Source: Chloroflexota bacterium (GTDB lineage: Bacteria > Chloroflexota > UBA6077 > SHYK01). Taken from it: a stretch of 64,000 nucleotides of DNA. Numbering within the stretch: position 1 is the first letter of the stretch; each line of letters starts with the position of its first letter. The notes under the pieces were generated by a model. That model made no database searches and was not told the DNA's origin. It saw only the letters and a program-made list of their open reading frames with translations. Position numbers and translations under genes: made by a program. This document shows positions 11,423-40,529 of this stretch, one piece after another. The stretch covers positions 124,001 to 188,000 of the forward strand of contig SHYK01000004.1 in NCBI GenBank assembly GCA_009692845.1, written 5' to 3'.

Positions 11423-12428
11423 AATGCTGATAGCCTCCCGACGCGACCACTACCAGCTCGCCACTCGCTTCCCGCAGGCGAACCTCGGGATGCTCGCCGG
11501 CCTGGCGGACGATCGCGCCAATCACCGTGACTGGGGCCTCTCCGAGGATTTGCAGGCGGGAGTTGGCCTGGTCCAGGGCGCCCCGGGAGCCGGTGCAAAC
11601 CAGCTCATAGTCCTCTCCGCCCGTAAGCGCCAGGTCCAGCGCCGCGGATCCGAACGCCCTGGCAGCGTCCGGATCGACCGGGACCAGATCCGAGTCGATT
11701 TCCGCGTCGACTTTGCTCCGCTCGCAGATATGGCCGACGTCGGCGAGCAAGCCATCGCTTATGTCAATCGCACACCGGACGCCCGCCTCGACCAGCACCT
11801 GGCCAGCCGCCACCCGCGGACTCGGGCGGAGATGGGCAGCGATGATTCTCGCGGATCCGCTGCTGCGATCGTTCTGCTGGAGCATGCGAAGGCCAGCGGC
11901 GGATGCGCCCAGGGGACCAGTCACCGCGATAAGATCCCCCGGCTCGGCGGCGGATCGAGTCAGAATTGGCGGAGACCCTGCTCGAACCGGTAGCGATTCA
12001 CCGATTACCGTGATGTGCAACCAGACGACCGGGCTGCGAACGGTGTCCCCACCCACAATGTGACAGTCGAAAGCGGCTGCGCACTCCCGCATCCCGGCAT
12101 ACAGGGCCTCGGCCTCCTCGGCAGTGCGGTGCGCGGGCAAACCCAGCCCAACCAACGCATAGCGCGGGGCACCGCCCATGGCAGCAATGTCACTGAGATT
12201 CTCGGCCAAAGCCTTCCAGCCCAAATCCTCCCAGCTCGTGGTGCCGAGGTCGAAGTGGACGCCCTCGACCAGCGAATCCACCGTCGCCAGAGTAAGACAG
12301 TCGGGGGTTCCTCGCCAGACCGCGGCGTCATCGCCGATTCCAAGCACGAGCTGGGCGGGCGAGCCGCTGCCCAGTACCGTCGAGAGGCGCTGGATGAGTC
12401 CGAATTCGCCCAGGCTCGATAGCTTCAA
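11415..12428 (-). CDS. thiL: thiamine-monophosphate kinase
   Basis: LGEFGLIQRLSTVLG, LGIGDDAAVW, VDSLVEGVHFDL; TTG start at 12428 with GTGAGGG upstream preferred over 12536. Confidence 0.9.
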   Translation of the reverse strand: MKLSSLGEFGLIQRLSTVLGSGSPAQLVLGIGDDAAVWRGTPDCLTLATVDSLVEGVHFDLGTTSWEDLGWKALAENLSDIAAMGGAPRYALVGLGLPAHRTAEEAEALYAGMRECAAAFDCHIVGGDTVRSPVVWLHITVIGESLPVRAGSPPILTRSAAEPGDLIAVTGPLGASAAGLRMLQQNDRSSGSARIIAAHLRPSPRVAAGQVLVEAGVRCAIDISDGLLADVGHICERSKVDAEIDSDLVPVDPDAARAFGSAALDLALTGGEDYELVCTGSRGALDQANSRLQILGEAPVTVIGAIVRQAGEHPEVRLREASGELVVVASGGYQHFG

Positions 12429-36111: not shown

Positions 36112-36228
36112 GGCCGAAAACCTCGACTCAGAGCTATTCTTGACAATCTCGCACGACTAAGTCGACATTCTACTAGGGTCCGAGTCGGAGCGGCAAATCC
36201 GGCGCCTAAATCCGAAAGGGCAACCGCC

Positions 36229-36612
36229 ATGGCTAGCGGCCTCGCATCCTCGTGCATCCCCAACATCGGTCCCCAACAACGGCGGATCCGCCTCAGGCTA
36301 GGCATCTCAGTGCTGGGGATTGGAGCGGGTGTGGCGGGGCTCTTGATCGCCACCGGAACATCGCCCCCCTTTCGGCTAGCCCTATTCCCGATCTTCCTGG
36401 CCGGCTTGATCTCAGTGTTCCAAGCCACGAACCAGACCTGAGTACTGCTCAGCTCGCGCGGTCAGCGCGACCTGGACGCCGGCCCCGAGCCGATCGAGGA
36501 CGTGGTGGAGCTGGCGCGAGTCCGCCGCCAAGCCCGCACCGTGTACCTGAAGTCGATCGCGGCCTCGGTCGTCCTGACCGCGCTAGTCGCGGCGGTGGGC
36601 TGGCCCCATTGA
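36229..36612 (+). CDS. small membrane protein with internal in-frame TGA (36439-36441); candidate selenoprotein or nonsense-interrupted gene
   Basis: CIPNIGPQQRRIRLRLG...FPIFLAGLISVFQATNQT-[UGA]-VLLSSRGQRDLDAGPEPIEDVVELARVRRQARTVYLKSIAASVVLTALVAAVGWPH*; same frame, GC-rich third positions on both sides. Confidence 0.55.
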
Positions 36613-36671: not shown

Positions 36672-37568
36672 ATGGGGCCGATGCCATTTGCCTATCTGCG
36701 CCCTACCTCTCTGCCCGAAGCGATTGCCCTGCTCGCCCAAGACGGCGGGCGGGCTCGACCGCTGGCCGGCGGCACCGATCTCCTGGTCCAGCTCCGCGCC
36801 GAGCGCTATCAGCTCGACCGAGTGGTCGACATCAAGGCAATCCCCGAACTGGCCGAGCTCCGCTACGACCCGGTGGATGGCTTGACCCTGGGCGCCGCCG
36901 TTCCCTGCTATCGGATCTACGAAGACCCAGCCATCCTCGCCCATTACCCAGGCCTCGTGGACGCGGTCTCCATCCTGGGTGGCGTAGCGATCCAAGGACG
37001 CGCCACGGTGGGCGGAAACCTCTGCAATGCTTCGCCGAGCGCCGACGTCACGCCGGTGCTAGCGGTGATGGGTGCCATCTGCATGATCTCGGGCCCCCTC
37101 GGCAGTCGGACCGTGGCAGTAGCCGAGTTCTGCACGGCGCCCGGACAGACGAGCCTGGACAACGGTGAGCTCCTGGTGTCGATTCAGGTTCCCGCTCCCG
37201 CTCCCAATTCCGGTGCCGCCTACCTGCGCTTTACCCCCCGCCGCGAAATGGATATCGCCGTCGCCGGAGCGGCGGCCTGGGTCGCGCTGGCCGACGACCA
37301 GCGCACCATCGCCGAAGCTCGGCTCGCCCTGGCTGCCGTCGGGCCCACCATGATCCTGGTCGACCATCTGAGTGAAGCGCTGGTCGGGACGGATGGCGGG
37401 GAGGCAGCGCTCGAAGCGGCGGCCCGGCGGGCCCGGGATTCCGCCCGACCCATTACTGACATGCGGGGCAGCGCATCCCAACGACGGCACCTGGCCGGAG
37501 TCCTGGCGAAACGCGTCCTTCAAGTGGCCATCGAGCGCGCGCGCCAGGCGTTTCCACCGAATGATTGA
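36672..37568 (+). CDS. xanthine dehydrogenase/CoxM-like FAD-binding subunit
   Basis: RPTSLPEAIALLAQDGGRARPLAGGTDLLVQLR, ATVGGNLCNASPSADVTPVL. Confidence 0.93.
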   Translation: MGPMPFAYLRPTSLPEAIALLAQDGGRARPLAGGTDLLVQLRAERYQLDRVVDIKAIPELAELRYDPVDGLTLGAAVPCYRIYEDPAILAHYPGLVDAVSILGGVAIQGRATVGGNLCNASPSADVTPVLAVMGAICMISGPLGSRTVAVAEFCTAPGQTSLDNGELLVSIQVPAPAPNSGAAYLRFTPRREMDIAVAGAAAWVALADDQRTIAEARLALAAVGPTMILVDHLSEALVGTDGGEAALEAAARRARDSARPITDMRGSASQRRHLAGVLAKRVLQVAIERARQAFPPND

Positions 37569-38082
37569 AAGAGCCACGACCCGGCTGCACGTCGAGACAC
37601 AAATCAACGGCGAGAATACCGACTACTTGTGCGGCCCGGAGCAGAGCTTGCTCGAAGTCCTCCGGGATGTCCTTGGGCTCACCGGCACCAAAGAAGGGTG
37701 TAACGATGGGAACTGCGGCGCGTGCAGCGTTCTCATGGGCAGCCGGCTGGTGAATGCCTGCCTGGTCCTGGGCGCCGAGGCGGAGGGGCAGGAGATTCGT
37801 ACCATCGAAGGGTTGGCCGGCCCGGACGGCCTCCATCCCCTTCAGCAGGCCTTTCTCGAGACCGCCGCCCTCCAGTGCGGAATCTGCACCCCCGGTTTTC
37901 TGATAGCCGCGGAGGCGTTGCTCGACCGGGAATCTGAACCCTCGGAGGAGCGCATCCGCTTCTGGCTAGCCGGGAATCTTTGCCGCTGTACTGGTTATGA
38001 CAAGATCGTGAGAGCGGTGCAGCTGGCTGCCGAGCGGCTGCGTCAGGCCGGCCAGCTGCGCGAGATGGAGGTGCCGACCTGA
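37561..38082 (+). CDS. xanthine dehydrogenase/CoxS-like 2x[2Fe-2S] subunit
   Basis: GCNDGNCGACSVL, QCGICTPGFL, GNLCRCTGYDKIV; ATGATTGA overlap with FAD subunit stop. Confidence 0.95.
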   Translation: MIERATTRLHVETQINGENTDYLCGPEQSLLEVLRDVLGLTGTKEGCNDGNCGACSVLMGSRLVNACLVLGAEAEGQEIRTIEGLAGPDGLHPLQQAFLETAALQCGICTPGFLIAAEALLDRESEPSEERIRFWLAGNLCRCTGYDKIVRAVQLAAERLRQAGQLREMEVPT

Positions 38083-38156
38083 CCGCGACCAAAGACACGG
38101 CTCGCCCCGGGGAGTCCGGCGAATCCAACATCGTCCTCTCGACCAGCGAATTCCAG

Positions 38157-40529
38157 GTGGTCGGGACTCGCCCGATCCGGCCCGACGGCGTCGACAAGGT
38201 GACCGGCCGCGCTCTTTACGGCTCGGACATACGCCTAACCGGCACCCTGACTGGCAAGGTGCTGCGGAGCCCGCACGCGCATGCGCGCATCCGGAGCATC
38301 GACGTCAGCCGTGCACTGGCACTTTCCGGTGTCAAGGCGGTCGTCACCGGGAAGGATTTGCCCCAAGCCGCCCCCGATGAAGTGATCGATCTGGGTGAGG
38401 GCGCGGGCAAGGTCAAGTACTTACGCGACAATATCCTGGCCACGGACAAAGTGCTTTATGAGGGGCACGCGGTCGCCGCGGTGGCGGCGACCAGCGCCGC
38501 GGTGGCTGACGCGGCACTCAAGCTCATCGCGGTCGATTATGAGCCGCTTCCCGCGGTCACCGACGTGCGTAAAGCGATGCAACCCGAGGCTCCGTCGCTC
38601 CACGGGACCTTGACCCCCGACGCGGCCCCCAATATTTCCGGCCAGGTACATCATCGGCTGGGCGACCCCGAGGCCGGATTCGCCGCCGCGGATGTGATTG
38701 TCGAAAACGAATTTACAACTGAGACCGTCCACCAGGGGTACGTCGAGCCCCACGTCGCCACCGCGATGTGGAATGCCGACGGCCAGCTCACGATTTGGGA
38801 TACCACTCAAGGGGCGTTCAGCGTACGCGAGCAGTGCGCCGAGATCTTGAGCCACCCGGTCTCCCAGATTCGGGTCGTACCGACCGAGATCGGTGGGGGC
38901 TTTGGCGGGAAGATCAACGTCTACCTCGAACCGGTCGCCGCGCTCCTCTCCCGCCAAAGTGGCCAACCGGTCAAGATCGCAATGACCCGCGCGGAAGTGT
39001 TTCGAAGCTCGGGACCAGCCCCCGCCTCCTGGGTTCGGATCAAGATTGGCGCGACTCGAGCGGGTCGGATCACAGCCGCCGAAGCGGAATTCGCTTTCGA
39101 GGCCGGCGCTTATCCAGGTGATCCGTGCTGGGTGGCTGCAATCTGCGTTTTCGCGGCCTACGAAATACCGAATGGACGCATCGACGGCTTCGGGGTGGTG
39201 CTGAACAAGCCCAGCTCGGCCGCCTATCGGGCACCCGGCGCCCCGCAAGTCGCCTTTGCCGCCGAGCAGATGGTGGACGAGCTGGCTGAGCGGCTCAACC
39301 TGGACCCGATTGATTTCCGGTTACTCAATAGCGCGCGAGAGGGCACAGTTCGCATCGACGGGGGCGCCCACGGTGGGATCGGGTCCATCGAGTGCCTGGA
39401 GGCGGCCCGGGCCCATCCCCATTACCACGCCCCATTAGGAAGGCGCGAAAACCCGGACGTTTCCCCCCAGCCGCACCCCACCACCGCGCAACCTCCTCCG
39501 CAAGGGGGGAGGGAAGTAGACCCCTCCCCCTCGACGGGGGAGGGCGACGCGGTGGCTGGGGGTGTCGTCCCCAGCGCTGAGGCAAGCTCTAGCCTGAGAC
39601 GCGGTCGGGGTGTGGCCAACGGCTTCTGGGTGAACGCCGGCATGCAGTCGAGCTGCACCATCAGTGTGTCTGCCGACGGCTCGGTCCACCTGGTCGAGGG
39701 GTCCACCGATATCGGGGGAACCCGAGCCGCGATCGCCATGCAAGCAGCCGAAATCCTCGGGCTGGAAGCTCATGAGGTAAAGCCAGTTGTGGCGGACACC
39801 GACTCGATCGGCTTCACCAGCCTTACTGGCGGCAGCCGCACCGCCTTCGCGACCGGGATCGCGGCGATCGAGGCGGCCCGGGAAGTGGTCCGCCAGATGA
39901 AAGAGCGGGCCGCCCAGCGCTGGGAACTGGACCCTGAGGAAGTCGACTTCGCGAAGGGCGTGTTCACCGCCGCCACCAACCCCACCCGCCGGCTGACCTT
40001 CAAAGAGCTGGCCACTCAGCTTGAAAAAACGGGCGGGCCGATCACCGGCAGCGCCAACGTCGATCCCCAAGGCCGGGGCGTCGCTTTTGCGACCTGTATC
40101 GCCGATGTCGAAGTCGACATCGAGACCGGAAAGGTCGGCGTCTTGCGGTTCACCGTCGTGCAGGACGCCGGTAAGGCGGTCCATCCCAGCTACGTCGAGG
40201 GCCAGATGCAAGGCGGAGCGGTGCAAGGCATCGGTTGGGCGCTTAGCGAGGAATATGTCATGGACGAAAAGGGCCACATGCTTAATCCGTCCTTCCTGGA
40301 TTACCGGATGCCCACTGCCCTGGACGTCCCCATGATCGACACGGTCATCGTGGAGGTACCCAATCCGGGCCACCCATTTGGCGTCCGCGGAGTGGGAGAG
40401 GTCCCCATCGTGGCGCCCGCCGCCGCCATCGCCAACGCTCTGCATCGCGCCCTCGGTGGCGTGCGACTCACTCGGCTCCCGATGAACCCGCGAACTGTCC
40501 TCGAAGCAACCGGACTGATAGACCGGTAG
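38157..40529 (+). CDS. xanthine dehydrogenase/CoxL-like molybdopterin-binding subunit, carrying an in-frame repeat insertion
   Basis: RPDGVDKVTGRALYGSDI, EIGGGFGGKINVYLEPVAALLS, YRAPGAPQ, GVGEVPIVAPAAAIANAL. Confidence 0.93.
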   Translation: MVGTRPIRPDGVDKVTGRALYGSDIRLTGTLTGKVLRSPHAHARIRSIDVSRALALSGVKAVVTGKDLPQAAPDEVIDLGEGAGKVKYLRDNILATDKVLYEGHAVAAVAATSAAVADAALKLIAVDYEPLPAVTDVRKAMQPEAPSLHGTLTPDAAPNISGQVHHRLGDPEAGFAAADVIVENEFTTETVHQGYVEPHVATAMWNADGQLTIWDTTQGAFSVREQCAEILSHPVSQIRVVPTEIGGGFGGKINVYLEPVAALLSRQSGQPVKIAMTRAEVFRSSGPAPASWVRIKIGATRAGRITAAEAEFAFEAGAYPGDPCWVAAICVFAAYEIPNGRIDGFGVVLNKPSSAAYRAPGAPQVAFAAEQMVDELAERLNLDPIDFRLLNSAREGTVRIDGGAHGGIGSIECLEAARAHPHYHAPLGRRENPDVSPQPHPTTAQPPPQGGREVDPSPSTGEGDAVAGGVVPSAEASSSLRRGRGVANGFWVNAGMQSSCTISVSADGSVHLVEGSTDIGGTRAAIAMQAAEILGLEAHEVKPVVADTDSIGFTSLTGGSRTAFATGIAAIEAAREVVRQMKERAAQRWELDPEEVDFAKGVFTAATNPTRRLTFKELATQLEKTGGPITGSANVDPQGRGVAFATCIADVEVDIETGKVGVLRFTVVQDAGKAVHPSYVEGQMQGGAVQGIGWALSEEYVMDEKGHMLNPSFLDYRMPTALDVPMIDTVIVEVPNPGHPFGVRGVGEVPIVAPAAAIANALHRALGGVRLTRLPMNPRTVLEATGLIDR
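39441..39600 (+). repeat. palindromic REP/MITE-like insertion inside molybdopterin subunit CDS
   Basis: CACCCCACCACCGCG...CCCCTCCCCctcgacGGGGGAGGG...CGCGGTGGCTGGGGGTG. Confidence 0.75.

Follow-up and report, generated by a model that had tools for sequence, protein, structure and literature searches.

An in-frame UGA in a small membrane protein gene of a Chloroflexota bacterium very likely encodes selenocysteine and marks an apparently uncatalogued selenoprotein family

The window, by which we mean the whole 64,000-nucleotide stretch of Chloroflexota DNA analysed here, contains a gene at 36229..36612 (+) which appears to be interrupted by a premature stop but is very likely intact, its internal UGA being decoded as selenocysteine (Sec); we put the probability of this reading at about 0.95. 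The evidence is comparative, with no protein, 75Se or reporter data. A first-pass annotation, made from sequence alone, had proposed a candidate selenoprotein here and had named findings that would refute it: homologues lacking Cys at the site, a genome without selA, selB or tRNA-Sec, and random stops or indels in close relatives. The candidate is supported, having survived every such test that could be computed. The gene appears to belong to an uncatalogued family of bacterial membrane selenoproteins which uses a known kind of decoding system, although its novelty rests on comparison with the searched libraries and open papers alone.

Results

Gene structure and coding evidence

The open reading frame 36229-36441 closes at a TGA (36439..36441, +), beyond which the same frame remains open for 56 codons until the TGA at 36610-36612. 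If the UGA is taken as a residue, halves of 70 and 56 residues join to give a protein of 127 residues, MASGLASSCIPNIGPQQRRIRLRLG...VFQATNQT-U-VLLSSRGQRDLDAGPEPIEDVVELARVRRQARTVYLKSIAASVVLTALVAAVGWPH, with Sec at position 71, and a TGA or Cys codon is present at this position in 97/97 readable homologous loci. A possible ribosome-binding site, AAAGGG (36215..36220, +), lies 8 nt 5' of the ATG, although this was read from the sequence alone. The first-pass annotation had reported that the frame runs on for 56 codons past the TGA with G/C-biased third positions, and this held (third-position GC content is 0.76 5' of the TGA and 0.89 3' of it); however, the bias alone is weak coding evidence because a short non-coding stretch downstream of the gene is also GC-rich (0.74). 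Substitution rates also support coding: across 29 pairs taken from related UGA genes, the median dN/dS was 0.18 before the UGA and 0.19 after it, which indicates equal purifying selection on both sides and a coding downstream half. The claim that both halves form one coding gene therefore held, on the basis of dN/dS, the homologues and a single confident predicted fold.

Homologues and the UGA/Cys site

Homologous loci were sought within the family, order, class and phylum, in the order of genome G045 and in the species collection. The family profile was matched by 98 loci, some of which are the same gene reached twice, and a profile treating UGA as a residue allowed the site to be read in 97; two loci encoding unrelated proteins (L021 of G005 and L043 of G168) were excluded from the homologue set. 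The site codon was TGA in 62 loci, TGC in 28 and TGT in 7, with no other residue found, and no further in-frame TGA occurred within the matched stretch of the 62 UGA loci. The first-pass claim that the UGA falls on a conserved Cys thus held, all 35 of the non-UGA readable loci having Cys there. These loci represent 44 distinct UGA forms and 33 distinct Cys forms, although the compared genomes share ancestry and the counts are not independent.

UGA forms were found in the Chloroflexota (including Anaerolineales and Caldilineaceae), Gemmatimonadota, Myxococcota and Blastocatellia (Acidobacteriota), in one Spirochaetaceae MAG and in the isolate Paludifilum halophilum. Melghirimyces thermohalophilus, which adjoins P. 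halophilum on the tree, has a Cys form, as do haloarchaea, Saccharibacteria and one Omnitrophota MAG. A maximum-likelihood tree built with the site masked requires at least six switches between Sec and Cys, with the caution that it rests on few columns and leaves many forks open. No relative of the family was found on viral contigs, nor did a haloarchaeal form of the family match any plasmid.

The motif which the first-pass annotation had named does exist, as shown by the sequence VCVALAARGVRNLD in a Polyangiaceae homologue (L100). The window protein has a C-x-x-N-I motif running from Cys9 to Ile13 (36253..36267, +), and a Cys preceding N-[ILVM]-[GSN] is present in 38/43 Sec forms and 31/33 Cys forms.

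The downstream hairpin

The hairpin proposed at 36450..36474 (+), CAG-c-TCGCGC-GGTCA-GCGCGA-c-CTG, has an upper stem of 6 bp (36454-36459 paired with 36465-36470) and the loop GGTCA (36460-36464), which begins 18 nt from the UGA, and it folds at -13.6 kcal/mol. The published limits for bacterial SECIS (bSECIS) elements are a loop of 3-9 nt with G in its first two positions, a stem of 4-16 bp, a spacing of 16-37 nt and a minimum free energy of at most -7.5 kcal/mol (PMC13188914), all of which are satisfied here. When synonymous codons were shuffled, which preserves the protein, none of 300 shuffles of the window gene folded as well (z = -2.9). As a group, UGA genes folded better than their shuffles (mean z -1.06, n = 44, P 8e-9), whereas Cys genes did not (mean z -0.14, n = 33, P 0.50), although these group P values ignore relatedness; between the two sister isolates, the values were -3.2 for Paludifilum and +1.9 for the Cys form of Melghirimyces. 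Taken singly, only 11/44 UGA genes reached P 0.05 against their shuffles, and several hairpins were no stronger than shuffled sequence.

In an ungapped alignment of 25 diverse UGA genes, 80% of stem cells paired, both sides had changed in 22 stem cells as against 9.0 in shuffles, and the stem covariation score was 0.339 as against 0.192. None of 500 shuffles matched the pairing, the double changes or the covariation score, and sliding the pairing partner lowered all three. The stem register differs among genes. A register shifted by two, with the triloop GGU, was also tried and suits some genes, for example L088 and L096, but overall covariation was lower. The comparison supports a hairpin that is under selection and SECIS-like in its behaviour, albeit without reporter data. 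The first-pass claim of a SECIS-like hairpin 18 nt from the UGA held, in that it is present, folds and covaries, and the conserved UGA and covarying hairpin that it had proposed looking for in relatives were both found, the UGA at the identical place.

Selenocysteine machinery

The first-pass annotation had also proposed a search of the genome for selA, selB, selD and tRNA-Sec, and all four are present in the assembly, which comprises 10 contigs totalling 1.88 Mb and is 89% complete. The tRNA-Sec scored 69.5 bits against its profile and was called by ARAGORN as tRNA-SeC with anticodon tca, whilst selA, selB and selD scored 556, 337 and 369 bits, respectively. The selD gene (L119, G000:C1:31437-32360, -) itself carries an in-frame TGA within HCAG-TGA-AGK, the known Sec site of SelD, and has a strong hairpin directly 3' of this UGA; a second gene of the organism therefore also needs UGA decoding. 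Within the window, a weak match to the selD profile (11637-12350, -; 81.5 bits) is probably not selD but a relative such as thiamine-monophosphate kinase.

Across the genomes tested, selA was above cut-off in 22/24 with a UGA form as against 9/26 with a Cys form, a contrast which is not a formal test because the genomes are related. In each of the other two UGA genomes selA was matched only in part, at 254.8 bits (cut-off 267.9) in one and at a contig edge in the other, and both matches are regarded as contig-edge fragments.

Predicted fold and topology

AlphaFold2, supplied with 34 homologues, modelled the read-through chain as a single unit (mean pLDDT 93.5, pTM 0.83), and the ten-residue blocks after the UGA scored 97-98 as far as residue 120. 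Three long helices are predicted, covering residues 15-42 (36271..36354, +), 46-68 (36364..36432, +) and 92-122 (36502..36594, +); the first two, and the end of the third, are predicted to be transmembrane, their placement in the membrane being inferred. A short helix (72-76) begins right after Sec71 in the model and is followed by short strands at 79-81 and 86-88. Residue 13 also takes part in a bridge, whose partner is probably one of these strands. The N-terminus has 4 basic and 0 acidic residues, loop 1 has no charges, and loop 2 has 6 basic and 6 acidic residues; from this distribution, and by the positive-inside rule, we infer that the N-terminus lies inside and that Sec71 faces the cytoplasm.

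Gene neighbourhood

Among homologous loci with annotated neighbours, no neighbouring gene was conserved across phyla, only Anaerolineales sharing neighbours, and the neighbourhood therefore lends no support to any particular substrate. Some Anaerolineales and their relatives carry glyoxalase-family, DoxX, NmrA-type and TetR genes close by, a mix which would suit electrophile or redox stress. This is no more than a hint, since the neighbours in the window are different, namely a TauE exporter, a D-Ala-D-Ala carboxypeptidase and a molybdenum hydroxylase operon.

The last of these (36672-40529, +) is of the xanthine or CO dehydrogenase type, begins 60 nt past the selenoprotein gene, shares its strand, and comprises three genes for the FAD, 2Fe-2S and Mo-binding subunits; no such neighbours were seen at the other loci with annotated neighbours. 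Its Mo-binding subunit contains, at about 39430-39650 (+), a low-complexity stretch, PHPTTAQPPPQGGREVDPSPSTGEGDAVAGGVVPSAEASSSLRRGRG, resembling the in-frame insertion of a repeat element, of which there is no second copy within the window. At five Anaerolineales loci (L093, L097, L098, L099 and L102) a gene of one family lies 63-285 nt downstream on the same strand, its product resembling the survival protein SurE (MHILVTNDDGVTAPGLLAL). The downstream neighbours in Paludifilum (L096, 8475-9284) and Melghirimyces (L101, 8475-9758) encode related proteins, that of Paludifilum having no Pfam match.

Discussion

Alternative explanations of the UGA

The simplest objection, raised by the first-pass annotation itself, is that a recent nonsense mutation or an assembly error has produced a UGA which merely ends a decaying gene, and a lone in-frame stop, seen in a single gene from a single MAG, would indeed look the same. 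However, the same UGA occurs at 62 loci from several phyla and independent assemblies, always as TGA and never as TAA or TAG, with only Cys as the alternative, and the dN/dS of 0.19 after the UGA contradicts decay. The conserved site refutes a recent nonsense mutation, and this class of explanation is all but excluded. It might instead be argued that a special tRNA decodes the UGA, giving Cys, Trp or another residue but not Sec. Cys-inserting and other unusual UGA-reading tRNAs exist in some bacteria, and Cys, as the sole alternative residue at the site, would fit a Cys-inserting tRNA. Against this, the genome has tRNA-Sec, selA, selB and a UGA-bearing selD, UGA forms accompany selA, and the hairpin is located where bSECIS elements sit; nor is UGA a general sense codon here, because the gene itself ends in TGA. 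We regard such decoding as very unlikely.

A further possibility concerns kinship and not decoding: the protein might be a distant member of YgaP-like_TM (PF11127, formerly DUF2892) in which Sec replaces a conserved Cys, with a role in sulfur transfer or export. PF11127, also a short membrane protein, was the commonest weak Pfam match (6/34 members, best E 0.0013), its sub-cut-off match covering residues 11-74; both families share an early N-x-G-x-x-[DE]R-x-x-R stretch, and in both a conserved Cys follows the second hydrophobic segment. A gene for a TauE-type sulfite exporter is also located upstream of the window gene, in divergent orientation. However, the window protein scored only 10.3 bits against a Pfam cut-off of 25.3, and hhalign gave a probability of 38% over just 23 columns, those of the N-terminal motif, and of 4% over 16 columns for the distant Cys group. 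Members of PF11127 span about 65 residues, with an invariant C-P and no third helix, whereas the window protein is without the C-P-L-Y motif and has an extra beta hairpin and the third helix; the absence of any PDB match to the window family, by sequence or fold, also speaks against the idea. Such membership is thus unlikely, the weak similarity being confined mainly to the N-terminal motif.

Relationship to known selenoproteins

No Pfam or NCBIfam model matched the window protein or the family members above cut-off, no PDB entry matched the family by sequence or by fold, and its fold had no significant match among viral structures. A 2026 catalogue of prokaryotic selenoproteins lists about 119 families or subfamilies (PMC13188914), and no entry in it fits the window family; the literature searched on this protein type yielded only the 2026 review. 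Within the reach of Pfam, NCBIfam and the 2026 catalogue, the protein can therefore be called undescribed.

With other bacterial selenoproteins, of which E. coli fdhF is the prototype, the gene shares an in-frame UGA, a hairpin at 18 nt whose apical loop starts with G, Sec machinery in the genome and Cys homologues. It differs in that its family is not catalogued and its product is a small membrane protein without CxxU, UxxC or a thioredoxin fold. Membrane proteins with Sec are not in themselves new, the catalogued transporters being YeeE/YedE (PF04143), a putative mercuric transport protein (PF02411) and the SO_0444 Cu/Zn efflux transporter (NF033936), but their Sec motifs (GUxSG, C/SxxU, UxC) differ from that of the window family, no member of which matches these three models in Pfam or NCBIfam.

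Proposed mechanism and significance

On the selenoprotein reading, SelB carrying Sec-tRNA-Sec would recognise the mRNA hairpin at 36450-36474, and the UGA at 36439-36441 would then be translated as Sec71 instead of causing termination; both steps are inferred from strong comparative evidence and not from experiment. The product is predicted to be an integral membrane selenoprotein of 127 residues, its chain carried by three long helices, with Sec71 putatively lying where helix 2 has just ended and the short helix begins, at the cytoplasmic face of the membrane. The invariant Sec or Cys at position 71 would be the reactive residue, and we lean, on inference only, towards selenol/thiol redox chemistry at the cytoplasmic membrane surface. 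Where it is present, Cys9 might conceivably act as a resolving partner, an idea weakened by its absence from 5/43 Sec forms. Our best guess at a role is the detoxification of peroxides, quinones or electrophiles, although any named substrate remains speculative. A bolder but still possible reading is that of a membrane-embedded class of selenoenzyme without a known fold relative, in which Sec71 and Cys9 would form a selenenylsulfide pair acting on a lipid-soluble substrate.

The family spans about six bacterial phyla and, as it has no Pfam or NCBIfam model, annotation pipelines will tend to call a 70-residue fragment and lose the rest. The cultured P. halophilum, with its Sec form, and its sister M. 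thermohalophilus, with a Cys form, make a direct comparison of Sec and Cys feasible.
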